Shown here: in pieces, positions 2,045-63,695 of the stretch | Layout: each line of letters begins with the position of its first letter | How positions within the stretch are numbered: position 1 is the first letter of the stretch | DNA from: Physcomitrium patens | Lineage: Eukaryota; Streptophyta; Bryopsida; Funariales; Funariaceae | NCBI RefSeq assembly: GCF_000002425.4 | Contig: NC_037253.1 | Location: forward strand, 8,365,176-8,429,175 | Direction: 5' to 3' | Length of the DNA: 64,000 nt | Notes under the pieces: generated by a model | Databases searched by the model: none | Seen by the model: the letters and a program-made list of their open reading frames with translations, nothing else | What the model was told of the DNA's origin: nothing | Position numbers and translations under genes: made by a program

Positions 2045-2611
2045 TGTCAAGGATAAGAACTCGATGAAAAGGTAATTCAGACAAGTGAGCCTTCACTGAA
2101 AGAAAGGTAACAAAATATAAATAAAAAAGTATGTATATTAAAAGAGAAACTGGAATGGCTATTGCCAAAAGACAAGAAAACTAAAGACCTTTGAAACTAG
2201 ACTGGAAGCAAGAAAGGAGTTGACAAGAGTGAAGAAGGCTTCACTCTTGTTTCTATATATACTATCTAACTAGGGACTACATGGCTCTTAGAGGTTCAAT
2301 AGGACCTCCAATATGTGTTGACTTTGTAGGACACATACCTTGACTTACAAGGCAAGTTTTTCTATGTGTGGGCCACATAGTTCACTTGATCTTCAACCTA
2401 ACAACATGTGTAGCACATGGCTAACTTATTGACCACGATTCTAATCCAAAAAGTCAATTAAAGATACCTATGAAGTCAAAGCAGTATCTATAAAGCTTCT
2501 AGGAAGCTTCCATATTAAATACTATAGAATTAACTTACTTTTATCTACTTTTACTTACTTCCACCTATTTGTATATGTAATTATTGGCTTACATGCTTAT
2601 GTCTGTGATAT
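2045..2611 (-). repeat. 3' LTR of copy C
   Basis: This LTR of about 567 bp lies at the 3' end of C, on the left because C is on the minus strand. It begins TGTCAAGG on the plus strand, the complement of the family's CCTTGACA end, and its other end abuts the C-rich complement of the polypurine tract. It retains the TATA-like motif and the inverted repeat seen in the LTRs of A and B. Confidence 0.85.
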
Positions 2612-5600
2612 TATTCCCCCTTCTAGAAATGAGTTCCACGAGGAGCGGTCATCATATGTTGAGGAAATCTATGATGCGACGAATTATATTTGTCACATAC
2701 TCTGATCTTTGTTCTCTTTGAAGATGATTGATAGGGCCTCTCAACCATCGATAGTGTCCCATACCAGGGCGGGAAGACCACGCAGTTATTTGATCATTGT
2801 TGAGGCCTTCATAACTTCCTTTGAATAGAACAGTTGAAACACCATCAAGAGTTGTTCCTATCTCTAGCAAAATCACCAAACATCGGGAGTCCCTTCCCAA
2901 ATCGTGATACCAAACGTGTTGTATCTCACCATCTATTCAAAGAAGAACATGGTGTTCTTGAAGAACTTCATCTCGATTACATTGTCTTGAAGGTTGTGAC
3001 AATCGTAATGTCTCATCTGACACGTCAACAAATGAAGGCTCTTGAGTCGAATCTGCTGGTTGTTGGTTCTCCATCTCCTGAGCGTCACAACTACAAAGAA
3101 GCTACGAACAAGGATTGAAAGTAGAATGTTATCTTGCCTAGATATTGTTTCTTTTATAAAGAAGGTTTTCATCTTGATTTTAATGAATGTCATCGATGAA
3201 AAGCCTCCACTGCCTTTATTGCATTTATAAGATTCTTTATTGGCCCTCATGTGCATTCACTAATATCATATCCGTGCCAATGGACAAGATATTTCAATTT
3301 ATTTTGGTATCGCCTTGAATCTAAGACTTCTTCTACTTCAAACTCTTCATTATTGTCGACTTCTATAGGAGGAGGTAGAGCTTGTCGTCTTCTTGATATG
3401 TCCACTATCTTGTATGATTCAAGAAGAGATACATGGAATACTGAATGGATTTTTATTGACTCCGGTAGATATAAACGATATGCAACTGGATTGATTTGTG
3501 TAGAAATAGAAAATGATCGAAGTCTTCAATAGTCCAACTTGCCACAAGGATGAGTGGTCTTGATATTGTGACGAAGTAGCCATACCTTATTACCCAAGAA
3601 GAATGGTGGTTGTTCCTTTTGATAGACATCCACATTGATCTTTGGTTGTTCTTGAGCCTCTTTTAACAACGCCTTTATCCTTGCATATAGCTCTGATAAA
3701 TGAATCGCCAAATCTTTCGTAGCAGGATTATCAACTTTTGAAAAGTCAAAAGTATCAAGTCGTGGATGATAACCATAATTAGCAAAGAAAGGTGTTTGTT
3801 TTGTAGAAGAATGTACCGTGTTATTGTAAGCAAACTCTGCCAATAGTAAAAGAGTTGTCCAATCATCTTGTTGGTAATTAATGGTACATCTTAAATATTG
3901 CTTCAAAACTTGATTAACACGCTCCGTTTGTCCATCAGTTTGAGGATGGAATGCCGAAGATAGTTTTATATCCACTTTTAGAATCTTGAAAAGAGTCCGC
4001 CAAAATCTTGATATAAATTGAGTTTCCCTATCTGATATAATATCCTTGGATAATCCATGATAGCGATAGATATTGTCAAGAAAGAGCTTAGCTGTTTCTT
4101 CACCTGTGATAGATTTTGTACATGGTACAAAATATGCCATCTTGGTAAAACGATCTACTATCACGAATATAGAATCATAAGAACCTGAGATTGGAAGATC
4201 CATGATGAAGTCCATAGAAACAGAAGACCATGGTTGTTTTGGAATGGATAATGGCTGAAGAAGTCCAAAAGGTCGATGATGAAGAATTTCTGATCTTGAG
4301 CAAACATCACATGATTGTACAAAATCTTTGATTGCCTTTCACATTTGAGGCCACCAAAAATCCCTAGATATCAGCTCCAAAGTCTTATTATATCCAAAAT
4401 GTCCTACTGTTGGGAAGTCATAACGAGCTTGAAGAATACATAAACATGCTTCTCCTTCTAGAATATATAGGCATCCTTCGAAATAGAATAGGTTGTTCTT
4501 AAATTCAAATTTAGAAGGATCATGAGATTTAGAAGAATTATTCTTGATATCATGAAGAAGAAGATCTGAAGACATACTTAACTGGACTTTCTTAAGAAAA
4601 GTTAAATCAATAGTCAATGTTGATTTTATTGCTTGAAGATGAAATTACTTCGACTTCAAGAGAACCATTCTTTGTTGCTCAAAAGCTACATCTCCTTCTT
4701 TTGGTGTAAGATAAGAATGTCTAGACAAGGCATCAGACAAACCTTATTGTTTACTTGGCCGATAAGTGATGATGAACTCGAATCTTGGTAAAGACATGCT
4801 CCAATGAGCGTAACGACGATTTAATACACGTGCTGACATAAAATATTCAAGGTTCTTGTGATCCATATACATGATGACTGGACTAGAAGAGCCTTCTAGA
4901 TTATGATGCCATTCTTGAAAAGAATCTACAATTACAAAAAGTTCTTTATCATGGATCTCATAATTTATTTCAGTTACTGAGAATTTTCTTAAATGAAAGG
5001 CTACTGGATGAAGTTTGTCATCTGTTCCCATTTGTAATAAAACCGCACCCACATCAAAGTCTCATGCATCTGTTTCCATAAAGAATGCTTTGAAAAAATC
5101 AACACGATACAAGATTGGTGCAAAAACAAACGCTATCTTCAAAGATTCAAAAGTAACTTTTGCTTCTTGATTCCATAAGAATTTGTCTTTACAAGTCAAA
5201 TGTGTAAGTGGAGCTGCAATTCAAGAGAAGTCCTTGATGAAGATCTGATAGTAGTTAGCAAATCCCAAAAAGCATTGGACATCTCTTACCATTTTTGGGA
5301 TCTTCCAATCTATAATAGTTTGAACTTTCTTAGGATCCATCATAAGTCCATCATTTGAAATGATGTAACCTAAGAAATCGAATTGAGTAGTCTGGAATAT
5401 ACACTTTTTTATCTTGGCATAGAGTCTTGAATGTCTTAATTTTTATAACATACGACGAACATGAAGTTCATGTTCTTTTGGATTTTTAGAATAGATAAAG
5501 ATGTCATCTAGATAACAGACCACAAAATCGTCCAAAAACTCTCAAAAAATATCATTCATTAGATGTTGAAAAGTTGCTGGTGCATTTGTAAGTCCAAAAG

Positions 5601-7739
5601 ACATGATATTGTATTCAAAATGTCTATACCTAGTTCGAAACGCAGTCTTCCATTCATCTCCTTCTTTGATGCATACTAGATTGTATGCTCCCCAAAGATC
5701 TATTTTTGTATAGATCTTAGCTTAATTCGGCTGATCAAGAAGTCCAGATATTAAAGATAGTGGATATCTGTTCTTGATGGTAATCTTGTTGAGTCCTTGA
5801 TAATCAACACACATCCGTAATGATCCATCTTTTTTCTTCACAAATAGAATTGGAGCTCCTGCTGGAGATTTAGAATGGGGTATGAAATTCTTGGCTAGAT
5901 TTTCTTCAATATACTCCTTGAGTTCAATCAACTCATTTTGTGATAAACTGTAGATTGGTCCAAATGGCGATTGTGCTCCTTCTTGAAGGTCAATTGAGTA
6001 ATTGTAGGGACGATGTTTCAAGAGTGTATCCACATTTTTTTTTTTTTCAAATACATCTTGAAATTCTTGATATTGGCTTGGAATGCCATGTGAAGTCTTT
6101 CTACTATTAGAAACGGGTGTGGCATAAATAATATATGGTGATTCTTTCACAGCAGCATACAAAAAAGCTTTTGTACCTATAAACATGGATTTAATTGAAC
6201 TCGACTTATGACTCTCTACTTGATTAACTACATTGTTAGTTATACTTTTAGAAAAAGTAAGAGTTAAGGAAATTCAATCTATTTGAGGGTTGTATTTTTC
6301 TAACCACAATAAACCTAAAATGACTGGATTAGAGGGAGATCTAATGATATTAAATACTACAAAGCTATTATGACCATTGATTATTACTTCTATAGGAAGG
6401 ATTTTGTGAGTAAAATCTCCAAAAGAGAATGGACGACCATCTATGACTTCTACATAAACATGTTTAGTATTCTTTATTAAAGATATGCTATGTCTTTTAG
6501 TAAATTCTTCATGTAAGAAACACGCTGAGGCTCCTGAATCTAACAAGGAAAAGGTTTTATAATATTTAGGTCCTAAAATAATATTTAATGTAAAACAAGG
6601 AGAGGGCTCTGAGGAGAGAATAGGACCTTTACTAGATGTTGTGCAAGGTTCCAATTGCACGGTCCCTATTATAGTTGGACAAACTCATTTTTTGACATAT
6701 TGTCTTCTTTCACAGCCATACTCCTCATTTTGTGATTGCGTCATTTCTTTGGATAATGTTGAGCAGTGTGCTTTGATTCTCCATAATATAAACATAATCC
6801 TTCTTGACAACGACAAGTCTTTTTTTACTCAGTAAGAGGTTTGAAATGTACTGCATTAATTTGCATATCCTCTACTTCCGAATGTATGTGTTGAAGAGGT
6901 GTTGGTGTTGCCATTGAATTATAGTAATGTTGAGGTCCACTTGTATGGTTCTCAGATCAAAATTCAAAAAGGCAATTGTCACACTTCACAGCAAAGTCAA
7001 TTACTTGACTCAATGTTTGAGGATTAGGTAAGTTGAGCATTATTTTTTTTACCTCATATTGTAATCCATAGAGAAATTAGCTAATAAGTGCAGTATCATC
7101 CCACTTGATATCAGTTGCAAGTTGTCAAAATTGTGAAGCGTACAATGTTATTGATCAATTGTCTTATTGTAAGATACGGATCTTATTGGTTGCAACACGA
7201 ATTGCATCATGTTCTCCATATATGGATCAAAAATCCACCAGAAAAGCCTCTAAATTATCCAATATTAGATCTCGTCGTTCAAGAAAAGATGAAAATCACG
7301 ATAGTGCTAAATCTGAAAGAAGTATACCAATGAATCTAACTTGCAATCCTGGAGTTGGATAGCTTTGGGATTGAAGTTCAATCACAAGTTACACTTGATT
7401 GATAAATCCTCGAAACTTGGATCTAGTGCCATCAAACTTCTCGGATAGGACAATTTTTGGTTCTCTAACTCTGGAAGGAAGTTTCACCATAAGAGAAAGG
7501 ACATGGTTTGGTGCACATGTTGAAGTAGCTCCACCAATTTCTATATCTTCACTTCCTGTCAATCATGTTACTCCTTGTGGTAGTAAATTGAGTTGATGCA
7601 TCCCAAGCATTAACTCCCTCAATTATTCTTGTATTTGTGCTATTGCACTCTTCATTTCAACAAGTTCTCCCATGATAACACTTAGAAAAGAGAAGATGTC
7701 TAATATTGCTCAAGACAAATAGAAGAGAGGACTTGAGAA

Positions 7740-7740
<1 letters not shown>

Positions 7741-7780
<40 letters not shown>
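7741..7780. repeat. Homopolymer A40
   Basis: Forty consecutive A on the plus strand, inside copy C near its gag start. Copies A and B lack it, so it arose after insertion of C, probably by slippage from an A-rich seed. Confidence 0.95.
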
Positions 7781-7783
<3 letters not shown>

Positions 7784-7904
7784 TAAGGACAATATCAGTT
7801 TAGAAGAGGATAATCTGTAACTTCTAATATGCTTATATCTTATCAAGAAAAAGGGATAATCCACTCTTAATAAAGATTAGACAAAGCTCTGATATTATAG
7901 GTGT

Positions 7905-7915
7905 ACTCTTGTCAA
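7905..7915 (-). promoter_or_regulatory. Primer-binding site of copy C (self-priming type)
   Basis: On the minus strand this reads TTGACAAGAGT, starting 2 nt after the 5' LTR. It is exactly complementary to the inferred transcript start within the same LTR, whose 11 nt lie on the minus strand at 8092-8102. That this match survives in an otherwise decayed copy supports it as a family feature. See copy A. Confidence 0.7.
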
Positions 7916-7917
7916 TC

Positions 7918-8477
7918 TGTCAAGGAGAAGAACTCGATGAAAAGCAATTCAGACAAGTGAGCCTGTACTCAAAGAAAGATAACAAAATATAAATAAACAA
8001 GTATATATATTCAAAGAGAAACTGGAATGGCTATTGCCAAAAGATAAGAAAATTAGAGACCTTTGAAACTAGACTGGAAGCAAAAAAGGTGTTGACAAGA
8101 GTGAAGAAGAATTCATTCTTATCTCTATATATACTATCTAACTACGAGCTATGTGGCGATGTTCTATAAGACCTTCAATATGTGTTGACTTTGTAGGATA
8201 CATGCCTTGACTTACAAGGCAAGTTTTTCTATGTGTGGGCTACATAGTTAGCTTGATCTTCAAGCTAATAACATGTGTGGCACATGGCCAACTTGTTGAC
8301 TACGTTTCTAATCCAAAAAGTCAATTAAAGACACCTATGAAGTCAAAATAGCATCTATGAAGCTTCTAAGAAGCTTTCATATTAAATACTATAGAATTAA
8401 TTTACTTTTACCTACTTTTACTTACTTCCACCTATTTGTATATGTAATTACTAGCTTACATGAGTATGTTTGTGATA
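7918..8477 (-). repeat. 5' LTR of copy C
   Basis: This LTR of about 560 bp is the 5' LTR of the minus-strand copy C. It starts TGTCAAGG on the plus strand and ends at a TGTGATA-like terminus. It is visibly diverged from the left LTR of the same copy, in keeping with C being older than A or B. Confidence 0.85.
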
Positions 8478-8482
8478 TATAT

Positions 8483-14859: not shown

Positions 14860-15190
14860 ATCCTAGTTGAAACCTTAATAGATTTCAATCAAATCCTAGG
14901 CCAAATCCTAAATTCTAAATAAATCCTTAATCCTAAATCCTAAGCAAATTCTTAATCCTAAATCCTAAACAAATCATAAATCCTAACTCTTAAGAAAATC
15001 CTAAATCCTAAAAAAAATCCTAAACCAAATCCTAAATCTTAATTCATTTCTAAACTCTAACCAAATTTTAACTAAGTCCTAAGTAAATCTTAAATCTTAA
15101 TCTAATCCTAATCCTAAACCAATGTTAATCCTAAATCAAATCCTAATTAGAACCTAATCAACTCAATCTAATCCTAGCATAATTTAAAAC
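14860..15190. repeat. Degenerate ATCCTAA-type repeat (telomere-like)
   Basis: About twenty or more irregular copies of words such as AATCCTA and TCCTAAA are spread over some 330 bp. TCCTAAA differs by one base from the plant telomere unit CCCTAAA. It could be a decayed interstitial telomere-like tract or a simple minisatellite expanded inside an AT-rich repeat. Confidence 0.6.
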
Positions 15191-16981: not shown

Positions 16982-16986
16982 TAAGG

Positions 16987-17538
16987 TGTCACGGCCATAA
17001 TCATGTAAGCTAATAATTACATATAGAAATAGGTAGAAGTAAGTAAAAGTAGATAAAAGTAAGTTAATTTTATAATATTTAATATAGAAGCTTCCTAGAA
17101 ACTTCCTAGACGCTGCTTTGACTTCATAGGTGTCTTTAATTGACTTTTTGGATTAGAAACGTGGTCAACAAGTTGGCCATGTGCCACACATGTTGTTAGC
17201 TTGAAGATCAAATTAACTATGTGGCCCACACATAGAAAAACTTGCCTTGTAAGTCAAGGCATGTGTCCTACAAAGTCAACACATATTGGAGGTCCTATAG
17301 AACGTCACCACGTAGCCCCTAGTTAGATAGTATATATAGAGACAAGAGTGAAGGCTTCTTCACTCTTGTCAACTCCTTTCTTGCTTCTAGTCTAGGTTCA
17401 AGAGTCTTTAGTTTCTTGTCTTGTGGCAATAGCCATTCCAGTTTCCTTTTAATATACCTACTTGTTTATATTTTGACTTATTATATCGAGATAGCCTTTT
17501 TGTGTATATTTTCCCTCATCGTGTCTTTGTCCTTGACA
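16987..17538 (+). repeat. 5' LTR of copy A
   Basis: This 552-bp LTR begins TGTCACGG and ends CCTTGACA. It holds a TATA box at 17331-17338 and a perfect 13-bp inverted repeat at 17341-17370. It differs from the 5' LTR of copy B at only about two sites, but from its own 3' LTR at about fourteen. Confidence 0.95.
17331..17372 (+). promoter_or_regulatory. LTR core promoter, hairpin and inferred transcript start
   Basis: TATATATA at 17331-17338 is followed by GACAAGAGTGAAG (17341-17353), a 4-nt loop and its exact complement (17358-17370). The 11 nt ACTCTTGTCAA at 17362-17372 begin 31 nt after the first T of the TATA box, a normal spacing for a plant start site. They are exactly complementary to the primer site after the LTR. 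The start site is inferred from spacing and complementarity, not measured. Confidence 0.65.
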
Positions 17539-17540
17539 GA

Positions 17541-17551
17541 TTGACAAGAGT
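17541..17551 (+). promoter_or_regulatory. Primer-binding site of copy A (self-priming type)
   Basis: TTGACAAGAGT begins 2 nt after the 5' LTR and is an exact 11-nt complement of the inferred first 11 nt of the element's own RNA (17362-17372). In Tf1 and relatives the first 11 nt of the transcript prime reverse transcription in this way. A tRNA-iMet-like fragment, TATCAGAGC, lies farther on at 17562-17570, but 23 nt from the LTR, an unusual distance for a primer site. Confidence 0.7.
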
Positions 17552-17749
17552 ACACTTACAATATCAGAGCTTTGTTTTTCTTGAGTGAGAGTGGATTACG
17601 CCTTTCTCTTGACAAGACATAAGCATATTAGAAGTTTGCAGATTATCCACTTCTAAACTGATATTGTTCTTAGTATCTTCTTTGTTATCAAGTCTTTCTT
17701 TTCTTTTGTCTTGAGCAGTATCAAACAAATTTTTCTTCTTAGTGTCATT

Positions 17750-18754
17750 ATGGCAGAGCTTGTTGAAATGAAGAGTGCAATGGCACTAATGCAAGAGCAA
17801 ATGAGGGAGTTAATGCTTGCGATGCATCAACTCAACTCACCAACACATGAAAGAACAAGAATAGCAAAAAGTGGGGATATAGAGATGATCGGAGCTGCTT
17901 CAACATCTACAACAAATCACGTTCCTTCTCCAATTGTACAACACCCTGTAAGTACTAGAAAACCAAGAATTCCCTTACCCGAGAAATTTGATGGTACGAG
18001 ATCAAAGTTTCGAGGATTCATCAATCAAGTACAATTGGCAATTGAACTTCAACCGCAAAGCTATCCAACTCCAAGATCACAAGTCAGGTTTATTGGCACT
18101 CTACTTTTTGGTTCTGTATTATCGTGGTTTTCGTCTTTTCTTGAACAACGAAATCCAATATTGGACAATTTGGAAGCTTTTTTGGCAGAGTTTCAATCTA
18201 TGTATGGTGAACACGATGCAACTCGTATTGCAACAAATAAGATCCGAATTTTGTGACAAAGAAATCACTCAGTAACAGTATATGCTTCACAATTTTGACA
18301 ACTTGCAATTGATATCAAGTGGGATGATGCTGCGCTCATCAGTCAATTTCTTTATGGATTGCAATACGAAGTAAAGAAATTGATGCTCAACTTACCTGAT
18401 CCTCAAACTTTGAGTCAAGCAATCGATTTTGTGGTAAAATGTGATAATCGACTTTTTGAATTTCGATCTGAGAATCATTCACGGGAACCTCAACGTTATT
18501 ACTCAATGGCAACATCAACATCTTTGCCAAACGTACATTCGAAAGTAGAAGACATGCAAATTGACGCGGTACGTATTAAACCCCTAACTCAGCAAGAAAA
18601 GATTCATCGTCGTCAAGAAAGATTATGTTTATATTGTGGAGAACCTAAGTACACTGCTCAACATTGTCCAAAGAAGCGACGCAACTATAAAATGAGGGGT
18701 ACGACGGTCAAAGAAAACAACATGTTGGAAAACGGATTCGTCCAACTACAATAG
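17750..18754 (+). pseudogene. gag: gag region of copy A
   Basis: The region encodes a capsid-type protein. It starts with a short coiled-coil-like segment rich in Met, Glu and Gln, followed by a retrotransposon gag core containing EKFDGTRSKFRGF, and ends with a CCHC zinc knuckle near 18627-18670 (CLYC...H...C, spacing C-X2-C-X4-H-X4-C). Gag would form the particle that packages the RNA in the cytoplasm. The pol frame starts just after it. It is part of a fossil with a few breaks; the same region in copy B is nearly identical. Confidence 0.85.
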
Positions 18755-18759
18755 GGACC

Positions 18760-21700
18760 ATGCAGCTGGAACCTTGTACAATTCCTAATGAAGGTCCTAT
18801 CCTCTCCTCAGAACCCTCTCCTTGTTTTATAATAGACTTATATTTAGGACCTAAGAATTACAAAGCCTCTGCTTTATTAGATTCAGGAGCCTCAGCATGT
18901 TTTTTAGATGAACAATTTGTTAAAAGTCGTAAAATATCTTTTGTACAGAAACCTAAACCAGTACATGTAGAAGTCATAGATGGTCGTCCCTTGTCTTCTG
19001 GAGGTGTCACTCATGAAACTCATCCTATAAAAGTAACAATAGACGGTCATGATAGCTACATAGCTTTTAACATAATTAAATCCCCGTCCAATCCAGTTAT
19101 TTTAGGTTTATCCTGGCTAGAAAAATATAACCCTCGAATAGATTGGAATTCGTGTAAACTTGACTTTTCCCAGAGCGTTATTAATAGTTCTACTAACCAA
19201 GTAAAAAATTATAAGTCTAGTATAGTAAAACCCGTACTGATAGGTGCAAAAGCATTTATACACGCAGCAAAAGAAGGATCAACTTTTGCTATTTATGCTG
19301 CACCTATTTCTGAAAACGTAAAGACTTCAAGTGGCATTCCAAGTCAATATCAGGAGTATCAAGACGTTTTTGAGAAAAAAAATGTAGATATTCTTCCTGA
19401 ACATCGCCCATATGATTGTTCAATCGACCTCAAGGAAGGAACTCAGCCACCATTTGGACCAATTTACAGTTTTTCGCAAGATGAGATGGCTGAACTCAAG
19501 ACATATATTGACGAGAATTTAGCGAAGAATTTCATACGCCATTCAAAATCTCCAGCAGGAGCTCCAATTCTATTCGTAAAGAAAAAAGATGGATCTTTAC
19601 GAATGTGTGTTGACTATCGAGGACTCAACAAGATCACAATCAAGAACAGGTATCCATTACCTTTGATATCAGGACTCCTTGACCAGTTGAATCAAGCTAA
19701 GATCTATACAAAAATAGATCTAAGAGGAGCATATAATCTAGTACGGATCAAAGAAGGAGATGAATGGAAGACTGCGTTTCGAACCAGGTATGGACATTTC
19801 GAATATAATGTCATGCCCTTTGGACTCACGAATGCACCAACTGCTTTTCAACATCTCATGAATGATATATTTTGTGAATTCTTAGACAATTTTGTTGTCT
19901 GCTATCTAGACGATATCCTGATCTATTCTAAGAACGTCGAAGAACATGAAATACATGTTCGTCAAGTATTACAAAAACTTACAGATCCAGGATTGTACGC
20001 CAAGATGGAAAAGTGTGTATTTCACACTACTCAAGTTGACTTTTTAGGATACATCATTTCAAATGATGGTCTCATGATGGATTCTAAGAAAGTCCAAACA
20101 ATCATGGATTGGAAGATTCCAAGGACAGTAAGAGATGTCCAATGTTTCTTGGGATTTGCCAATTACTATCGGATCTTCATCAAAGATTTCTCACGAGTTG
20201 CAGCTCCACTTATACGCTTGACTAGTAAAGATAAATTTCAATGGAATCAAGAAGCGGAAGCAGCATTTGAAGCCTTGAAGACATCGTTTGTCTCTGCATC
20301 AGTCTTATATCGTGTTGACTTTTCCAAGGCATTTTTTATGGAAACAGATGCATCAGATTTTACCTTGGGTGCAGTTTTATCACAAATGGGAACAGATGAC
20401 AAACTTCATCCGATAGCTTTTCATTCAAGAAAATTCTCAGCAGTCGAGATCAATTATGAGATCCACGATAAAGAACTTCTTGCGATCATGGATTCCTTTC
20501 AAGAATGGCGTCATTATCTAGAAGGCGCTTCTAGTCCAGTCACTGTGTATACAGATCACAAGAACCTCGAGTATTTCATGTCAGCACGCTTGTTGAATCG
20601 TCGTCAAGCTCGTTGGAGTATGTCTTTGTCAAGATTCGAGTTCATTATCACTTATCGGCCAGGAAAACAACAAGGTTTGTCCGATGCCCTATCTAGACGT
20701 TCTTATTTTGCACCAAAAGAAGGAGATGCAACTTTTGAGCAACAAAGAACGGTCCTCTTGAAACCAGAGCAATTTCATCTCCGAGCAATGAAATCAACAT
20801 TGATTGTTGATTCAACTTTTCTCAAGCAAATCCAGTCCAGTATGTCCTCAGACCCTCTTGTTCATGATATCGAGAATAATTCTTCCAAGTCTCATGATTC
20901 TTCTAAGTTCGAGTTCAAGAATAATCTATTATATTTTGAAGGACGCCTATATGTTCCAGAAGGAGAAGCACGTTTACGTGTTCTTCAAGCACGTCATGAC
21001 TTTCCAGCAGCAGGGCACTTTGGATATAATAAGACTTTGGAACTCATATCAAGAGATTTTTGGTGGCCACAAATGTGGAAGTCAGTCAAAGACTTTGTAC
21101 AATCATGTGATATTTGTTCAAGATCAAAAATTCCTCGTCATCGACCTTACAGACTTCTTCAGCCATTACCTATACCAGAACAACCATGGTCTTCTGTTTC
21201 TATGGATTTCATCACAGATCTTCCAAGCTCAAGATCTTATGATTCTATATTTGTGATAGTAGATCGTTTCACCAAGATGGCACACTTTGTGCCATGTACA
21301 AAATCTATCACAGGTGAAGAAATAGCTAAGCTTTTCATTGATAATATCTATCGCTATCATGGATTACCTAAAGATATCATATCGGATAGGGGAACTCAAT
21401 TTGTGTCAAGATTCTGGAGGACCCTTTTTAAGATTTTAAAAGTGGACATAAAGCTATCTTCGGCTTTCCATCCTCAAACTGATGGACAAACAGAGCGCGT
21501 AAACCAAGTCTTGGAGCAGTATTTAAGGTGTACTATCAACTACCAACAAGATGATTGGATAACCCTTCTGCCATTGGCAGAGTTTGCTTATAATAATACG
21601 GTACATTCTTCCACGCAACAAATACCTTTCTTTGCCAATTATGGCTATCATCCACGACTTGATACTTTTGATTTTTTAAAAGTTGATAATCCTGCAGCAG

Positions 21701-21837
21701 AAGATATGGCAAATCGGTTGTCAAAGTTACATGCAATAATGAAGACACAATTGAAGGAAGCTCAAGAACGACAAAAGATAAACGTAGATCTATATCGTAA
21801 GGAGCAACCACAACTCAACGTGGGTGATAAGGTATGA
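18760..21837 (+). CDS. pol: pol region of copy A (protease, RT, RNase H, integrase)
   Basis: This is an open frame of 1025 codons. The aspartic protease motif DSGAS is at residues 41-45. Reverse transcriptase spans about residues 255-420, with YLDD at 382-385. RNase H begins near residue 527 (ETDAS). The integrase HHCC zinc region is at about 745-790 (ends CDIC). The integrase core follows, with Asp near 815, Asp near 876 and Glu near 912; the last two are separated by 35 residues, the family's D-D-35-E pattern. The products would mature the particle, copy the RNA and insert the DNA. The chromodomain part lies just downstream. This is the longest conserved pol stretch in the window; the element as a whole is a fossil. 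Confidence 0.9.
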   Translation: MQLEPCTIPNEGPILSSEPSPCFIIDLYLGPKNYKASALLDSGASACFLDEQFVKSRKISFVQKPKPVHVEVIDGRPLSSGGVTHETHPIKVTIDGHDSYIAFNIIKSPSNPVILGLSWLEKYNPRIDWNSCKLDFSQSVINSSTNQVKNYKSSIVKPVLIGAKAFIHAAKEGSTFAIYAAPISENVKTSSGIPSQYQEYQDVFEKKNVDILPEHRPYDCSIDLKEGTQPPFGPIYSFSQDEMAELKTYIDENLAKNFIRHSKSPAGAPILFVKKKDGSLRMCVDYRGLNKITIKNRYPLPLISGLLDQLNQAKIYTKIDLRGAYNLVRIKEGDEWKTAFRTRYGHFEYNVMPFGLTNAPTAFQHLMNDIFCEFLDNFVVCYLDDILIYSKNVEEHEIHVRQVLQKLTDPGLYAKMEKCVFHTTQVDFLGYIISNDGLMMDSKKVQTIMDWKIPRTVRDVQCFLGFANYYRIFIKDFSRVAAPLIRLTSKDKFQWNQEAEAAFEALKTSFVSASVLYRVDFSKAFFMETDASDFTLGAVLSQMGTDDKLHPIAFHSRKFSAVEINYEIHDKELLAIMDSFQEWRHYLEGASSPVTVYTDHKNLEYFMSARLLNRRQARWSMSLSRFEFIITYRPGKQQGLSDALSRRSYFAPKEGDATFEQQRTVLLKPEQFHLRAMKSTLIVDSTFLKQIQSSMSSDPLVHDIENNSSKSHDSSKFEFKNNLLYFEGRLYVPEGEARLRVLQARHDFPAAGHFGYNKTLELISRDFWWPQMWKSVKDFVQSCDICSRSKIPRHRPYRLLQPLPIPEQPWSSVSMDFITDLPSSRSYDSIFVIVDRFTKMAHFVPCTKSITGEEIAKLFIDNIYRYHGLPKDIISDRGTQFVSRFWRTLFKILKVDIKLSSAFHPQTDGQTERVNQVLEQYLRCTINYQQDDWITLLPLAEFAYNNTVHSSTQQIPFFANYGYHPRLDTFDFLKVDNPAAEDMANRLSKLHAIMKTQLKEAQERQKINVDLYRKEQPQLNVGDKV

Positions 21838-21839
21838 CT

Positions 21840-22248
21840 ACTTCGTCGCAATATCAAGACTACTCGACCTTGTGACATGTTGGACTATCGTAGGCTTGGC
21901 CCCTTTTCTGTTTCTGAACAGATCAACCCAGTTGCATATCGGTTACATCTACCGGAGTCAATGAAGATCCATCCTGTATTCCACGTGTCTCTTCTTGAAC
22001 CATATAAGACAGTGGATATACAAGGAAGAAGACAAATGCCACCGCCTTCTATAGAAGTAGATAATAATGAAGAATTTGAGGTGGAAGAGATATTAGACTC
22101 AACGCGGCGCCGAAATAAGCTGGAATATCTTGTTCATTGGCGCGGATATGATATTAGTGAACGCACATGGGAGCCATCCAGGAATCTAGCAAATGCATTA
22201 GCTAAAGTCAAAGTTTTTCATCAACGACATCCATCGAAACCAAGATAA
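21840..22248 (+). pseudogene. Integrase C-terminus with chromodomain, copy A
   Basis: This region encodes a GPY/F-like segment (RLGPFSVSEQ near 21892), then HPVFHVSLLEPYK, and a chromodomain at about 22065-22200 with the aromatic signature YLVHWRGY...TWEP. In chromoviruses this domain guides integration to modified chromatin. The end (FHQRHPSKPR) is very like fungal Tf1/sushi-type elements. It is part of a fossil; the same layout is seen in copy B. Confidence 0.85.
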
Positions 22249-22342
22249 AAATCTCTCTTATAAAAGAGACAAGATTGAGACAAGATAACATTCAATTTCC
22301 TATCCTTGTTTGTAACTTCTTTGCATTTGTGACGCTAATTAG

Positions 22343-22765
22343 ATGGAGAGCCAACAACCAGCGGATTCAACTCAAGAACCTTCGTTTGCTGACCTGCCGG
22401 ATGAGACATTACGATTGTCACAACCTTCAAGACGACGCAATTGAGATGAAGATCTTCAAGAACGATATGTTCTTCCTCGAATAGATGGTGAGATACAACG
22501 CATTTGGTATCACGATTTGGGAAGGGACTCCCGATGTTTGGTGATTTTGCTAGAAGTAGGAACAACTCCTGATGGTGTTCCAAATATTCTATTCGAAGGA
22601 AGTTACGAAGGCCTCAACAATGATCAAATAATTGGGTGGTCTTCCCGCCCTCGTATGGGACACTACCGATGGTTGAGAGGCCCTATCAATCATCTTCGAA
22701 GAGAACAGAGATCAGAGTATGTGGCGAATACAATTCGTCGCATCATAGATTTCCTCAACATATGA
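22343..22765 (+). pseudogene. Uncharacterised 3' accessory region, copy A
   Basis: Between the chromodomain and the polypurine tract lies a coding-like region of about 140 codons; the piece 22517-22765 reads as 82 residues ending RRIIDFLNI. I do not recognise the product. It has no clear membrane segment and is rich in charged residues. The same region occurs in copies B (62680-63102) and C (2655-3080) and as a decayed trace in G. Between A and C most differences change the amino acid, so there is no sign of constraint after insertion. About one break here. Coding function is unproven. Confidence 0.45.
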
Positions 22766-22792
22766 TGACCGCTCCTCGTGGAACTCGTCTCT

Positions 22793-22803
22793 AGAAGGGG
22801 GGG
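22793..22803 (+). promoter_or_regulatory. Polypurine tract of copy A
   Basis: AGAAGGGGGGG lies 3 nt before the 3' LTR. This is the usual plus-strand primer of LTR elements. The same 11 nt are present in copy B. Confidence 0.9.
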
Positions 22804-22806
22804 TAA

Positions 22807-23358
22807 TGTCACGGCCATAATCATGTAAGCTAATAATTACATATAGAAATAGGTAGAAGTAAGTAAAAGTAGATAAAAGTAAGTTAATTCTATAATATTT
22901 AATATAAAAGCTTCCTAGAAACTTCCTAGACGCTGCTTTGACTTCATAGGTGTCTTTAATTGACTTTTTGGATTAGAAACGTGGTCAACAAGTTGGCCAT
23001 GTGCCACACATGTTGTTAGCTTGAAGATCAAGCTAACTATGTGGCCCACATGTAGAAAAACTTGCCTTGTAAGTCAAGGCATGTGTCCTACAAAGTCAAC
23101 ACATATTGGAGGTCCTATAGAACGTCGCCACGTAGCCCCTTGTTAGATAGTATATATAGAGACAAGAGTGAAGGCTTCTTCACTCTTGTCAACTCCTTTC
23201 TTGCTTCTAGTCCAGGTTCAAGAGTCTTTAGTTTCTTGTCTTGTGGCAATAGCCATTCTAGTTTCCTTTTAATATACATACTTGTTTATATTTTGACTTA
23301 TTATATCGAGATAGCCTTTTTGTGTATATTTTCTCTCATCGAGTTTTTGTCCTTGACA
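22807..23358 (+). repeat. 3' LTR of copy A
   Basis: 552 bp, TGTCACGG to CCTTGACA, followed by the target duplication TAAGG. It differs at about 14 sites from the 5' LTR of A and at about 14 sites from the 3' LTR of B. Confidence 0.95.
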
Positions 23359-23363
23359 TAAGG

Positions 23364-23889: not shown

Positions 23890-24659
23890 ATATTTTTTTT
23901 CAAAGAAGTTATGGAGGTCTTAACAATGATTAAATAACAATGTAGTCTTTCCACCTTAGAATGAGACATTACCAATGGTTGAGAAGACCTATAAAATATC
24001 TTCATAATAAACAAAGATTAGAGTACATAGCAAATATAATTTGCTACATTTTAAACTTCTTCAACATGTGATCATTAATGGTTAAAGAACTTGTTTTTAG
24101 AAAAGGGAGTAATGTCATGAAAATATATTTATTGTAATTATTACCTAAGTAATATGAATAGATAGAAGTAGATAAAAATATATTAATTTCATAATATATT
24201 TTAAAGATATTTTTTAGAAGCTTTATAGATGCTTCTTTGATTTTACATGTGTTTGTAGTTCATTGGTAGGTTAAAAATTTAGTCAATAAATTAACCACAT
24301 ACTACATGTATTGGTAGCTTAAGAAATAAGATAAATATGTAGCACTTATATAGAAAACTTTCTTTGCAAGTTAAGATATGTGTTGTGTAAAGTCAACACA
24401 TTTTGGAAGTCCTATAGAATATCACCACATAGTTCCTATGCAGATAGTATATATAGAGGCAAGAGTGAAGCTTTCTTCATTGTTGTCAAGTTCTTTCTTA
24501 CTTCTACTCTAACTTCAAGAAGTCTCTAGTTTTCTTATCTTTTGGCAATAGCCATTCTAGTTTCTTTTTAATATATATACTTCCTTATTTTTACTTTGTC
24601 ATATTCTTTAAAAAAGTCTCACTTATTTAATTACTTTCATCAAATTTTTGTCCTTAATA
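23890..24659 (+). mobile_element. Fragment G: decayed 3' end of a chromovirus with LTR
   Basis: It contains a decayed match to the 3' accessory region (about 23900-24070), a worn polypurine tract near 24100-24110, and an LTR at 24113-24659 that starts TGTCATG. No 5' part remains. It is strongly AT-shifted, with many breaks, and is much older than A, which lies just upstream. Confidence 0.7.
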
Positions 24660-24954
24660 AGTGATTAACATCAAGATAGAAGAAAATATTAGCAAGAATT
24701 ATAATAGAGGCCAAAGTATCACAATGTCAAACTAATAAGCTATAGAGGAATAATGGCGAAGCTTTGATAATTTATACGTGTCCATTTTAAGTAAGAATTA
24801 CTACAATGACGTGTGTAAAGATTGAAGGCATTAAAGAATCAATCTTAATATTGATAGATCATGGTTTTGAGATCAATATCTTATCCATAAGGATTTATGA
24901 GAACAAAAAATAGCCAATTGATAGTAACTATGGATGGATGTTATGGATTGCTAA

Positions 24955-46879: not shown

Positions 46880-47463
46880 TATGAAAGATATAAATCATAA
46901 TAAAATTCTAAAGAAGAAATATATTCTTAAGATACCTAAACAAAAAAAATTAAATAAATCAAAGATAAATATAAGATAGAAAGTAGAATGTTTGTTGTCA
47001 AATAAAAATATACTAAAGATTCTTGAGCTAAGATAAGAATACAAGAAATTTGTTGAAAAGAGTGAAGAAGACCTTATTCTTGCCTCCATATATATTATCT
47101 AATTAAAGAGCTACATGGCAATGTTTCATAGGTCATTTGACACATGTCCAACTTATGAGAGACTTGTCTAACTTTCAAAGCAATTTTCTAATATATGTGC
47201 CACATTGTCAACTTGTACAATAAGTGACCAACACCTGCAAAATACATCCAACTTGTAAAACAAGGGATCAATATATGCAATACATGGCCAATTTAATGGC
47301 CACATTTTTAACCTATGAATTATCTATAAATACATAAAAAGTCAAATTTATATTTATAAAGCTTTCAAGGAGCTTTTTCACAAGATATTATCAAATTTAC
47401 TTATTTCTACTTACTTTTACCTAATTCCTCTTATATTTATTAGTATTAGTAATTTTGTAACAC
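46880..47463 (-). repeat. 5' LTR of fossil E
   Basis: It matches the LTRs of C, D and F in word order (AAGAGTGAAGAAG, then a TATA-like stretch, then the CACATG-rich middle). It is diverged and contains extra internal repeats of an ACTTGTAAAACAAG-like phrase. Confidence 0.65.
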
Positions 47464-57324: not shown

Positions 57325-57875
57325 TGTCACGGCCATAATCATGTAAGCTAATAATTACATATAGAAATAGGTAGAAGTAAGTAAAGTAGATAAAAGTAAG
57401 TTAATTCTATAATATTTAATATAGAAGCTTCCTAGAAACTTCCTAGACGCTGCTTTGACTTCATAGGTGTCTTTAATTGACTTTTTGGATTAGAAACGTG
57501 GTCAACAAGTTGGCCATGTGCCACACATGTTGTTAGCTTGAAGATCAAATTAACTATGTGGCCCACACATAGAAAAACTTGCCTTGTAAGTCAAGGCATG
57601 TGTCCTACAAAGTCAACACATATTGGAGGTCCTATAGAACGTCACCACGTAGCCCCTAGTTAGATAGTATATATAGAGACAAGAGTGAAGGCTTCTTCAC
57701 TCTTGTCAACTCCTTTCTTGCTTCTAGTCTAGGTTCAAGAGTCTTTAGTTTCTTGTCTTGTGGCAATAGCCATTCCAGTTTCCTTTTAATATACCTACTT
57801 GTTTATATTTTGACTTATTATATCGAGATAGCCTTTTTGTGTATATTTTCCCTCATCGTGTCTTTGTCCTTGACA
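57325..57875 (+). repeat. 5' LTR of copy B
   Basis: 551 bp, TGTCACGG to CCTTGACA. It is nearly identical to the 5' LTR of A, with about two differences. The TATA box is at 57668-57675. Confidence 0.95.
57668..57709 (+). promoter_or_regulatory. LTR core promoter and inferred transcript start, copy B
   Basis: Same arrangement as in A: TATATATA, the 13-bp hairpin, and ACTCTTGTCAA at 57699-57709 beginning 31 nt after the first T of the TATA box. Confidence 0.6.
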
Positions 57876-57877
57876 GA

Positions 57878-57888
57878 TTGACAAGAGT
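57878..57888 (+). promoter_or_regulatory. Primer-binding site of copy B (self-priming type)
   Basis: TTGACAAGAGT, 2 nt after the 5' LTR, is exactly complementary to 57699-57709. Confidence 0.7.
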
Positions 57889-58086
57889 ACACTTACAATA
57901 TCAGAGCTTTGTTTTTCTTGAGTGAGAGTGGATTACGCCTTTCTCTTGACAAGACATAAGCGTATTAAAAGTTTGCAGATTACCCACTTCTAAACTGATA
58001 TTGTTCTTAGTATCTTCTTTGTTATCAAGTCTTTCTTTTCTTTTGTCTTGAGCAGTATCAAACAAATTTTTCTTCTTAGTGTCATT

Positions 58087-59091
58087 ATGGCAGAGCTTGT
58101 TGAAATGAAGAGTGCAATGGCACAAATGCAAGAGCAAATGAGGGAGTTAATGCTTGCGATGCATCAACTCAACTCACCAACACATGAAAGAACAAGAATA
58201 GCAAAAAGTGGAGATATAAAGATGATCGGAGCTGCTTCAACATCTACAAGAAATCACGTTCCTTCTCCAATTGTACAACACCCTGTAAGCACTAGAGAAC
58301 CAAGAATTGCCTTATCCGAGAAATTTGATGGTACGAGATCTAAGTTTCGAGGGTTCATCAATCAAGTACAATTGGTAATTGAACTTCAACCGCAAAGCTA
58401 TCCAACTCCAAGATCACAAGTCAGGTTTATTGGCACTCTACTTTCTGGTTCTGTATTATCGTGGTTTTCGTCTTTTCTTGAACAACGAAATCCAATATTG
58501 GACAATTTAGAAGCTTTTTTGGCGGAGTTTTGTTCTATGTATGGTGAACACGATGCAACTCGTGTTGCAACAAATAAGATCCGAATTCTGCGACAAGGAA
58601 ATCGTTCAGTAACAGTATATGCTTCACAATTTTGACAACTTGTAATTGACATCAAGTGGGATGATGCTGCGCTCATCAGTCAATTTCTTTATGGATTGCA
58701 ATACGAAGTAAAGAAATTGATGCTCAACTTACCTGATCCTCAAACTTTGAGTCAAGCAATCGATTTTACGGTAAAATGTGATAATCGACTTTTCGAATTT
58801 CGATCTGAGAATCATTCACGGGAACCTCAACGTTATTACTCAATGGCAACATCAACATCTTTGCCAAACGTACATTCGAAAGTAGAAGACATGCAAATTG
58901 ACGCGGTACGTTTTAAACTTCTAACTGAGCAAGAAAAGATTCGTCGTCGTCAAGAAGGAGTATGTTTATATTGCAGAGAACCTAAGCACACTGCTCAATA
59001 TTGTCCAAAGAAGCGACGCAACTATAAAATGAGGGGTACGATGGTCAAAGAAAACAACATGTTGGAAAACGGATTCGTCCAGCTACAATAG
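58087..59091 (+). pseudogene. gag: gag region of copy B
   Basis: It matches the gag of copy A throughout: coiled-coil-like start, capsid core and CCHC knuckle (CLYCREPKHTAQYC) near 58960-59005. Part of a fossil with a few breaks. Confidence 0.85.
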
Positions 59092-59096
59092 GGACC

Positions 59097-62000
59097 ATGC
59101 AGCTGGAACCTTGTACAATTCCTAATGAAGGTCCTATCCTCTCCTCAGAACCCTCTCCTTGTTTTATAATAGACTTATATTTAGGACCTAAGAATTACAA
59201 AGCCTCTGCTTTATTAGATTCAGGAGCCTCAGCATGTTTTTTAGATGAACAATTTGTTAAAAGTCGTAAAATATCTTTTGTACAGAAACCTAAACCAGTA
59301 CATGTAGAAGTCATAGATGGTCGTCCCTTGTCTTCTGGAGGTGTCACTCATGAAACTCATCCTATAAAAGTAACAATAGACGGTCATGATAGCTACATAG
59401 CTTTTAACATAATTAAATCCCCGTCCAATCCAGTTATTTTAGGTTTATCCTGGCTAGAAAAATATAATCCTCGAATAGATTGGAATTTGCGTAAACTTGA
59501 CTTTTCCTAGAGCGTTATTAATAGTTCTACTAACCAAGTAAAAAATTATAAGTCTAGTATAGTAAAACCCGTACTGATAGGTGCAAAAGCATTTATACAC
59601 ACAGCAAAAGAAGGATCAACTTTTGCTATTTATACTGCACCTATTTCTGAAAACGTAAAGACTTCAAGTGGCATTCCAAGTCAATATCAGGAGTATCAAG
59701 ACGTTTTTGAGAAAAAGAATGCAGATATTCTTCCTGAGCATCGTCCATATGATTGTTCAATTGACCTCAAGGAAGGAACTCAGCCACCATTTGGACCAAT
59801 TTACAGTTTATCGCAAGATGAGATGGCTGAACTCAAGACATATATTGACGAGAATTTAGCGAAGAATTTCATACGCCATTCAAAATCTCCAGCAGGAGCT
59901 CCAATTCTATTCGTAAAGAAAAAAGATGGATCTTTACGAATGTGTGTTGATTATCGAGGACTCAACAAGATCACAATCAAGAACAGGTATCCATTACCTT
60001 TGATATCAGGACTCCTTGACCAGTTGAATCAAGCTAAGATCTATACAAAAATAGATCTAAGAGGAGCATATAATCTAGTACGGATCAAAAAAGGAGATGA
60101 ATGGAAGACTGGGTTTCGAACCAAGTATGGACATTTCGAATATAATGTCATGCCCTTTGGACTCACGAATGCACCAGCTGCTTTTCAACATCTCATGAAT
60201 GATGTATTTCGTGAATTCTTAGACAATTTTGTTGTCTGATATCTAGACAATATCTTGATCTATTCTAAGAACGTCGAAGAACATGAAATACATGTTCGTC
60301 AAGTATTACAAAAACTTACAGATGCAGGATTGTACGCCAAGATGGAAAAGTGTGTATTTCACACTACTCAAGTTGACTTTTTAGGATACATCATTTCAAA
60401 TGATGGTCTCATGATGGATTCTAAGAAAGTCCAAACAATCATGGATTGGAAGATTCCAAGGACAGTAAGAGATGTCCAATGTTTCTTGGGATTTGCCAAT
60501 TACTATCGGATCTTCATCAAAGATTTCTCACGAGTTGCAGCTCCACTTATACGCTTGACTAGTAAAGATAAATTTCAATGGAATCAAGAAGCGGAAGCAG
60601 CATTTGAAGCCTTGAAGACATCGTTTGTCTCTGCATCAGTCTTATATCGTGTTGACTTTTCCAAGGCATTTTTTATGGAAACAGATGCATCAGATTTTAC
60701 ATTGGGTGCAGTTTTATCACAAATGGGAACAGATGACAAACTTCATCCGATAGCTTTTCATTCAAGAAAATTCTCAGCAGTCGAGATCAATTATGAGATC
60801 CACGATAAAGAACTTCTTGCGATCATGGATTCCTTTCAAGAATGGCGTCATTATCTAGAAGGCGCTTCTAGTCCAGTCACTGTGTATACAGATCACAAGA
60901 ACCTCGAGTATTTCATGTCAGAACGCTTGTTGAATCGTCGTCAAGCTCGTTGGAGTATGTCTTTGTCAAGATTCGAGTTCATTATCACTTATCGGCCAGG
61001 AAAACAACAAGGTTTGTCCGATGCCCTATCTAGACGTTCTTATTTTGCACCAAAAGAAGGAGATGCAACTTTTGAGCAACAAAGAACGGTCCTCTTGAAA
61101 CCAGAGCAATTTCATCTCCGAGCAATGAAATCAACATTGATTGTTGATTCAACTTTTCTCAAGCAAATCCAGTCCAGTATGTCCTCAGACCCTCTTGTTC
61201 ATGATATCGAGAATAATTCTTCCAAGTCTCATGATTCTTCTAAGTTCGAGTTCAAGAATAATCTATTATATTTTGAAGGACGCCTATATGTTCCAGAAGG
61301 AGAAGCACGTTTACGTGTTCTTCAAGCACGTCATGACTTTCCAGCAGCAGGGCACTTTGGATATAATAAGACTTTGGAACTCATATCAAGAGATTTTTGG
61401 TGGCCACAAATGTGGAAGTCAGTCAAAGACTTTGTACAATCATGTGATATTTGTTCAAGATCAAAAATTCCTCGTCATCGACCTTACAGACTTCTTCAGC
61501 CATTACCTATACCAGAACAACCATGGTCTTCTGTTTCTATGGATTTCATCACAGATCTTTCAAGCTCAAGATCTTATGATTCTATATTTGTGATAGTAGA
61601 TCGTTTCACCAAGATGGCACATTTTGTGCCATGTACAAAATCTATCACAGGTGAAGAAATAGCTAAGCTTTTCATTGATAATATCTATCGCTATCATGGA
61701 TTACCTAAAGATATCATATCGGATAGGGGAACTCAATTTGTGTCAAGATTCTGGAGGACCCTTTTCAAGATTTTAAAAGTGGACATAAAGCTATCTTCGG
61801 CTTTCCATCCTCAAAACGATGGACAAACAGAGCGCGTAAACTAAGTCTTGGAGCAGTATTTAAGGTGTACTATCAACTACCAACAAGATGATTGGATAAC
61901 CCTTCTGCCATTGGCAGAGTTTGCTTATAATAATACGGTACATTCTTCCACGCAACAAACACCTTTCTTTGCCAATTATGGCTATCATCCACGACTTGAT

Positions 62001-62585
62001 ACTTTTGATTTTTTAAAAGTTGATAATCCTGCAGCAGAAGATATGGCAAATCGGTTGTCAGAGTTACATGCAATAATGAAGACACAATTGAAGGAAGCTC
62101 AAGAACGACAAAAGATAAACGTAGATCTATATCGTAAGGAGCAACCACAACTCAACGTGGGTGATAAGGTATGACTACTTCGTCGCAATATCAAGACTAC
62201 TCGACCTTGTGACATGTTGGACTATTGTAGGCTTGGCCCCTTTTCTGTTTCTGAACAGATCAATCCAGTTGCATATCGGTTACATCTACCGGAGTCAATG
62301 AAGATCCATCCTGTATTCCACGTGTCTCTTCTTGAACCATATAAGACAGTGGATATACAAGGAAGAAGACAAATGCCACCGCCTCCTATAGAAGTAGATA
62401 ATAATGAAGAATTTGAAGTGGAAGAGATATTAGACTCAAGGCAGCGCCGAAATAAGCTGGAATATCTTGTTCATTGGCGCGGATATGATATTAGTGAACG
62501 CACATGGGAGCCATCCAGGAATCTAGCAAATGCATTCGCTAAAGTCAAAGTTTTTCATCAACGACATCCATCAAAACCAAGATGA
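59097..62585 (+). pseudogene. pol: pol and chromodomain region of copy B
   Basis: Protease (DSGAS near 59217), RT (about 59820-60420), RNase H (about 60675-61000), integrase zinc region and core (about 61330-61850), GPY/F-like segment and chromodomain (about 62225-62560), in the same order as copy A. Several breaks. Apart from these it is very close to A, which speaks for a recent common source or conversion between the two. Confidence 0.85.
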
Positions 62586-62679
62586 AAATCTCTCTTATAA
62601 AAGAGACAAGATTGAGACAAGATAACATTCAATTTTCTATCCTTTTTTGTAACTTCTTTACATTTGTGACGCTAATTAG

Positions 62680-63102
62680 ATGGAGAGCCAACAACCAGCG
62701 GATTCAACTCAAGAACCTTCGTTTGCTGACCTGCCGGACGAGACATTACGATTGTCACAACCTTCAAGACGACGCAATTGAGATGAAGATCTTCAAGAAC
62801 GATATGTTCTTCCTCGAATAGATGGTGAGATACAACACGTTTGGTATCACGATTTGGGAAGGGACTCCCGATGTTTGGTGATTTTGCTAGAGGTAGGAAC
62901 AACTCCTGATGGTGTTCCAAATATTCTATTCGAAGGAAGTTACGAAGGCCTCAACAATGATCAAATAACTGGGTGGTCTTCCCGCCCTGGTATGGGATAC
63001 TACCGATGGTTGAGAGGCCCTATCAATCATCTTCGAAGAGAACATAGATCAGAGTATGTGGCGAATACAATTCGTCGCATCATAGATTTCCTCAACATAT
63101 GA
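62680..63102 (+). pseudogene. Uncharacterised 3' accessory region, copy B
   Basis: Equivalent of 22343-22765 in copy A; the piece 62854-63102 ends RRIIDFLNI. It occupies the same place between chromodomain and polypurine tract. Function unknown. Confidence 0.45.
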
Positions 63103-63129
63103 TGACCGCTCCTCGTGGAACTCGTCTCT

Positions 63130-63140
63130 AGAAGGGGGGG
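63130..63140 (+). promoter_or_regulatory. Polypurine tract of copy B
   Basis: AGAAGGGGGGG, 3 nt before the 3' LTR, identical to copy A. Confidence 0.9.
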
Positions 63141-63143
63141 TAA

Positions 63144-63695
63144 TGTTATGGTCATAATCATGTAAGCTAATAATTACATATAGAAATAGGTAGAAGTAAG
63201 TAAAAGTAGATAAAAGTAAGTTAATTCTATAATATTTAATATAGAAGCTTCCTAGAAACTTCCTAGACGCTGCTTTGACTTCATAGGTGTCTTTAATTGA
63301 CTTTTTGGATTAGAAACGTGGTCAACAAGTTGGCCATGTGCCACACATGTTGTTAGCTTGAAGATCAAGCTAACTATGTGGCCCACACGTAGAAAAACTT
63401 GCCTTGTAAGTCAAGGCATGTGTCCTACAAAGTCAACACATATTGGAGGTCCTATAGAACGTCGCCACGTAGCCCCTAGTTAGATAGTATATATAGAGAC
63501 AAGAGTGAAGGCTTCTTCACTCTTGTCAACTCCTTTCTTGCTTCTAGTCTTGGTTCAAGAGTCTTTAGTTTCTTGTCTTGTGGCAATAGCCATTCCAGTT
63601 TCCTTTTAATATATGTACTTGTTTATATTTTGACTTATTATATCGAGATAGCCTTTTTGTGTATATTTTCCTTCATCGAGTCTTTGTCCTTGACA
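63144..63695 (+). repeat. 3' LTR of copy B
   Basis: 552 bp ending CCTTGACA at 63695, followed by CTTCC. Its first dozen bases show several C-to-T differences from the family norm. It differs at about 13 sites from the 5' LTR of B. Confidence 0.95.

Follow-up and report, generated by a model that had tools for sequence, protein, structure and literature searches.

The Ty3/gypsy-type element present in three full copies (A, B and C) in the 64-kb window, by which we mean the whole stretch of DNA analysed here, is with a probability of roughly 0.9 a land-plant chromovirus of the Tf1/sushi type, probably of the Tcn1 clade and most likely RLG1 of Physcomitrium patens, that is primed for reverse transcription by the first 11 nucleotides of its own RNA. 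Two complementary 11-mers, their position relative to the 5' LTR, their recurrence in copies that number in the thousands and the way they change together from one family to another are observed directly; the RNA start is predicted from TATA spacing, and cleavage and priming are proposed by analogy with Tf1. The features of the window to which the text refers are as follows.

16987-23358, plus strand: copy A, with target duplication TAAGG at 16982-16986 and 23359-23363
57325..63695, plus strand: copy B, with primer 57699-57709, primer-binding site (PBS) 57878-57888 and target duplication CTTCC
2045..8480, minus strand: copy C, older, its start placed approximately (about 8480), with primer 8102-8092 and PBS 7915-7905
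16987..17538, plus strand: 552-bp 5' LTR of copy A, TGTCA...TGACA
22807..23358, plus strand: 3' LTR of copy A, in which the U3 arm is at 23161-23173 and a further primer word at 23182-23192
17331..17338, plus strand: TATA box TATATATA of copy A
17341..17353, plus strand: U3 arm GACAAGAGTGAAG of copy A, complementary to 17358-17370
17362..17372, plus strand: putative self-primer ACTCTTGTCAA, predicted first 11 nt of the RNA
17541..17551, plus strand: PBS TTGACAAGAGT, exact complement of 17362-17372
17558..17667, plus strand: leader stem 3' of the PBS, 17558-17567 pairing with 17658-17667
17750..18754, plus strand: gag region of copy A, two ORFs, the first with a DUF4939/Ty3 capsid match
18760..21837, plus strand: pol ORF of copy A, with protease, RT, RNase H and integrase
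21877..22248, plus strand: C-terminal part of the copy A integrase, with Tf2-1-like SH3 domain and chromodomain
24110..24660, plus strand: old LTR from a relative, with about 75% identity and a decayed hairpin and primer region

The 5-bp target duplications TAAGG and CTTCC fix the LTR end of copies A and B at the CA of TTGACA, and against this boundary three claims of an earlier, sequence-only reading hold up in copy A: the PBS is an exact 11-nt complement of the word inside the LTR, it lies two nucleotides past the 5' LTR (CA ending at 17538, spacer GA at 17539-17540), and the primer word starts 31 nt downstream of the first base of the TATA box. The match extends over exactly 11 nt, with mismatched flanking pairs on either side, and the pair is common to all three full copies. 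The primer 11-mer occurs 9 times in the window, compared with 0.02 expected, in the six LTRs (two each for copies A, B and C) and at the three sites after a 5' LTR. Taken together, TATA spacing and the C|A context predict an RNA start at or near the A of ACTCTTGTCAA (17362). The first 11 nt of such an RNA would fold back to pair with the PBS, two bases past the 5' LTR, the RNase H of the element would, as in Tf1, cut after nucleotide 11, and RT would then extend the 11-nt RNA as minus-strand primer. The primer:PBS duplex is found in the minimum-energy fold of copy A, of copy C and of a related contaminant contig (L009), and in the consensus fold of both of the families considered below. Whole-leader fold energies weigh on the other side, being ordinary for copy A and L009 (z of -0.66 and -1.0, respectively) and lower for copy C (-2.63).

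The coding part of copy A is that of a chromovirus. Pfam searches with pieces of copy A return a DUF4939/Ty3-type capsid, protease, RT, RNase H, H2C2 and core integrase, SH3 and chromodomain matches, and the best matches of the RT among solved structures are Ty3 chains. The chromodomain aligns with those of CDYL and HP1 and, judged by eye, keeps the aromatic residues at what we take to be the aromatic cage positions, as expected of a classical (group I) chromodomain. RT and RNase H lie upstream of integrase, which is followed by the chromodomain; in copia elements, of which the TAR lineage is an example, integrase precedes RT, an order that is not found in copy A. The pol region of copy B is broken into several ORFs. 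The window also contains LTR remnants of relatives. At 43180-43911 and 46979-47215 (minus strand) a more distant relative, with an RT that is 48% identical, has left a remnant in very AT-rich surroundings, adjoined by a related LTR fragment. Gag-like ORFs at 11095-12990, with zinc-knuckle-like motifs recognized by eye and no match in Pfam, lie within an older element of another kind, and a degenerate, faintly telomere-like AAATCCT tandem array is located at 14903-15042.

Beyond the window we used pieces of copy A to search twenty 10-kb stretches spaced 1.5 Mb apart on one contig, of which one stretch is largely masked. The genome contains a second family, with primer AGTCTCGACAA and site TTGTCGAGACT (stretches L035 and L051; L036 is a copy of this family with one primer change), and the same family 2 pair is present in contaminant contig L009, whose RT is 75% identical. 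Relative to copy A, 3 of the 11 pairs differ in family 2 and L009, and all three are changed on both sides. Further variants are L054, with primer AATCTCGACAA and a site that has one extra base, and L041, with primer AATCTCGATAA and one mismatch to its site. Fourteen copies, located by LTR, leader or gag similarity (3 from the window, 10 from the stretches and L009), were compared, the last 11 letters of the site being used for L054; an apparent family-2/family-1 mismatch at L051:3920 was rejected and left out, as it reflects a truncated family-1 LTR next to another LTR. Pairing is 11/11 in 10 copies and 10/11 in the other 4, where it must be kept in mind that the junction motif used to place the site in 12 of the 14 rows requires TTG and so presets the first three site letters there. 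Position 2 of the duplex is occupied by C-G, G-C and A-T pairs, position 6 by T-A and C-G, and position 8 by T-A and A-T. When sites are shuffled among the 6 distinct rows a mean of 52.0 paired cells is obtained, compared with 62 of 66 observed, and 109 of 20,000 permutations are as good, a statistic that ignores the relatedness of the copies. The distance from TATA box to primer is 30-32 nt in all 14 copies.

Counts over the genome (470 Mb in 101 contigs) establish that these pairs are abundant. With 85 matches to chlorophyll a/b-binding proteins the genome is that of a green plant, and its size and dominant chromodomain gypsy family suggest a moss. The exact family 1 pair, with a gap of 158-188 nt, is found at 3,608 places, each of which matches on both strands since the pattern is its own reverse complement, and the exact family 2 pair at 1,640 places. 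Mixed family 1/family 2 pairs, searched with the spacing typical of the respective family, were seen at 4 + 4 places, and in three of one set of 4 a family-2 LTR is inserted in the opposite direction. Opening the variable positions gives 4,706 (family 1) and 2,307 (family 2) places, and reversed-pattern controls yield 0 for the exact, mixed and opened-position searches alike. Among 20 copies picked for an exact 18-nt primer region the LTR junction motif is present in 17, with an intact PBS in 15 of these 17.

Changes within families are less orderly. We selected 20 family-1-like copies, 17 for their odd primers and 3 for diverged surroundings; a two-sided change is seen in one of the former (L063, position 9), and all three of the latter pair 11/11. 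In a family-2-like sample of 20, from which L091 and L092 were left out as false joins inside an LTR, 4 of the remaining 18 show a two-sided change (L080, L082, L084 and L088), 12 have only unmatched changes and 2 the standard pair. Twenty further stretches, informative only at positions other than 2 because the fetch pattern required A-T there, gave a mixed outcome at those positions. Decay of dead copies would produce unmatched changes of this kind. The sequence-only reading had put forward paired changes between the two 11-mers as a check of its proposal; they are borne out between families, by the three two-sided changes, but not within a family, where most single changes are unmatched, so that the positive evidence comes from the differences between families.

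Contigs L009-L014 are eukaryotic chromovirus sequences inside bacterial genome records, evidently contamination, some of which are useful as outgroups. L010 and L013, with RTs that are 56% and 51% identical, respectively, each have a primer/PBS pair of their own, CTTGTGAATTAT/ATAATTCACAAG in L010 and ATCGAATCCT/AGGATTCGAT in L013, with sites two bases past the apparent CA of LTRs whose ends are not fixed by duplications. The L013 pair lies 33 nt after TATATA. That of L010 is found about 55 nt after a TATA-like word, unlike the 30-32 nt spacing of the 14 copies, and this counts against the self-priming model. No pair was seen in L011, L012 or L014; L012 stops no more than about 220 nt past the chromodomain match, and the beginning of L014 is too near its PBS region for a primer to fit. 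Stretch L052 has a 12-nt inverted pair with no LTR visible around it, and inspection by eye upstream of gag in L046 and L047 revealed no LTR or pair. A search of viral contigs gave no relative, the one weak match (27.7% identity) being in a phage record.

Priming by a tRNA was considered as a rival. A PBS that starts with TGG near the LTR, as in the tRNA-primed Tekay, CRM, Galadriel and Reina elements, is missing from copy A, where the first TGG after the 5' LTR begins at nt 54 and none occurs in the first 53 nt. The usual plant primer site for initiator tRNA-Met is TGGTATCAGAGC, and the nine bases of its core are present as TATCAGAGC (17562-17570), a word that recurs in several copies of both families, so one could imagine that initiator tRNA-Met primes there and that the 11-mers are incidental. 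We consider this very improbable, and rejected it, because the TGG needed to pair with the CCA end of the tRNA is missing, CAA standing in its place, and because the word is part of a covarying stem; it also begins 24 nt past the LTR and is lacking in L009 and L041-like copies. The stem in question (17558-17567/17658-17667, 10 bp) encloses about 90 nt of leader and includes TATCAGAGC in its left side. Across 8 copies, all of them distinct rows in a register chosen by hand, 76 of 80 pairs are kept; permutation gives a mean of 72.0, with 175 of 20,000 trials reaching the observed count, and both sides are changed at positions 1, 2, 8 and 9. In this element a search for tRNA-type primer sites can mislead, since the tRNA-Met-like word belongs to an RNA stem, and in the open-licence literature we have found no description of a covarying stem 3' of the PBS that explains such a word. 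Two family-2 copies, L035 6050-5830 and L051 1240-990 on the minus strand, apparently have the stem and its leader unit twice in tandem.

The second set of concerns involves a U3 arm. The 13 nucleotides of GACAAGAGTGAAG (17341-17353) pair with CTTCACTCTTGTC (17358-17370) and so mirror the first nine bases of the primer; this arm, a third related segment on which the sequence-only reading is silent, and the beginning of R can fold into a hairpin. A hairpin of this sort is as compatible with the 5' end of an RNA as with its 3' end and 17362 is a start predicted from sequence, so that self-priming from an RNA that starts further upstream, with the primer internal or with the arm as part of the 5' end, has to be weighed. 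We think it very unlikely, as the arm starts 10 nt past the beginning of the TATA box, closer than is usual for a start site, and a 5' hairpin would, from the predicted energies, compete with primer:PBS pairing. It might also be argued that, with a 9-nt core common to arm, primer and PBS alike, the dyad is a DNA site, bound by a regulator or serving as a promoter palindrome, and that the PBS word was copied from the U3 arm and plays no part in priming. To this we give hardly any credence: the primer/PBS match is 11 nt, two beyond the shared core, and ends exactly there, primer and PBS change jointly between families, and the PBS stays two bases past the LTR end with no other primer site seen. 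Tf1-type self-priming is the best reading of the data, and the suggestion of the sequence-only reading that this family primes itself is well supported by the exact complement, the TATA position, the two-sided changes between families and the lack of a tRNA-type site in copy A; priming itself is likely.

The arm stem is itself well preserved, with 10-13 of its 13 pairs kept in the 14 copies. Among 9 distinct rows 108 of 117 cells are paired, compared with a permuted mean of 97.3 (35 of 20,000 as good), one pair outside the primer is changed on both sides in L041 and L054, and family 2 has G-U. Predicted hairpin energies lie between -15.7 and -21.0 kcal/mol for 10 of 11 LTRs, with copy C at -8.6 kcal/mol, and a perfect primer:PBS duplex is put at -14.4 or -16.2 kcal/mol. 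If the RNA starts at the primer, the arm would be absent from its 5' end and present in the part contributed by the 3' LTR, so that only the 3' copy of the primer would be masked. These considerations lead to a tentative proposal, one that we hold to be possible and nothing stronger, in which transcription arms the primer: the U3 arm would lock the primer copy of the 3' LTR in a hairpin, the arm-free 5' copy would pair with the PBS, and arm, primer and PBS would be under a joint constraint. Against masking, the predicted fold of the first 60 nt by themselves leaves the 5' primer copy only 0.15-0.96 unpaired, and a junction hairpin recognized by eye in L013 leaves the primer in its loop. As a hypothesis, the arm is the part of the system worth testing.

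Self-priming has been shown for Tf1 and since implicated from sequence in other fungi, vertebrates and plants; the Tf1 self-primer is 11 nt in length, and self-priming has also been proposed for Tcn1 of Cryptococcus (PMC7175516). Our element shares with Tf1 and the sushi group (Tf1 and Tf2 of Schizosaccharomyces pombe, Tj1, sushi-ichi) a chromodomain integrase, and with Tf1 an 11-nt complementarity of the predicted start of the RNA to a PBS adjoining the 5' LTR (PMC7175516, PMC10085805). It differs in its host, a land plant, and apparently in two details. The pretzel of Tf1 has two flanking duplexes besides primer:PBS, making three in the leader RNA (PMC10085805), and the flanking duplexes are not clearly present in the leader of our element (10 tests, the best with 11, 21 and 47 of 300 shuffles), which tells against the model. 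The U3 arm of our element mirrors the primer, and the available text of PMC7175516 and PMC10085805 makes no mention of such an arm in Tf1.

The sequence-only reading knew of no described case in land plants, a claim of novelty that has to be corrected because Neumann et al. (2019; PMC6317226) had already predicted self-priming for the majority of Tcn1 chromoviruses, in that survey a clade of mosses and club-mosses, and for TAR elements of the Ty1/copia superfamily, and not for other plant chromoviruses. The Tcn1 clade, with its chromodomain gypsy elements and predicted self-priming, has no known difference from our element. TAR elements share with it only the predicted self-priming in land plants; they are copia elements, unlike our element with RT before integrase and then a chromodomain. 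Tcn1 elements are reported in Physcomitrella (PMC6911290), and it is the published placement of Physcomitrella elements with Tcn1 (PMC2864245, PMC3350952, PMC6911290) that makes membership of the clade probable here; for SM-Tcn1 of Selaginella, PMC2864245 gives evidence of neither tRNA priming nor self-priming. RLG1 of Physcomitrium patens, with 5,092 complete copies in 462 Mb assembled and transcription in protonema (PMC7466625), is likewise a dominant chromodomain gypsy family, in a genome of comparable size, and the accessible text of that paper does not mention a PBS or self-priming. Neither the U3 arm nor covariation of primer and PBS in mosses turned up in the open-licence literature, and the available text of the papers cited does not appear to address how the 5' primer copy is told from the 3' copy.

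The element is a better-documented case of a self-priming already predicted for mosses, for which the matched changes that separate sister families give new backing. A family of thousands of copies, with several sister families, offers a natural covariation test in a land plant, in which the mechanism is measurable. The mirrored arm suggests how self-primed elements may tell the 5' from the 3' copy of the primer and, if the proposal is true, the joint constraint on arm, primer and PBS would explain how such an element keeps priming, and cleavage by RNase H, away from the wrong RNA end.
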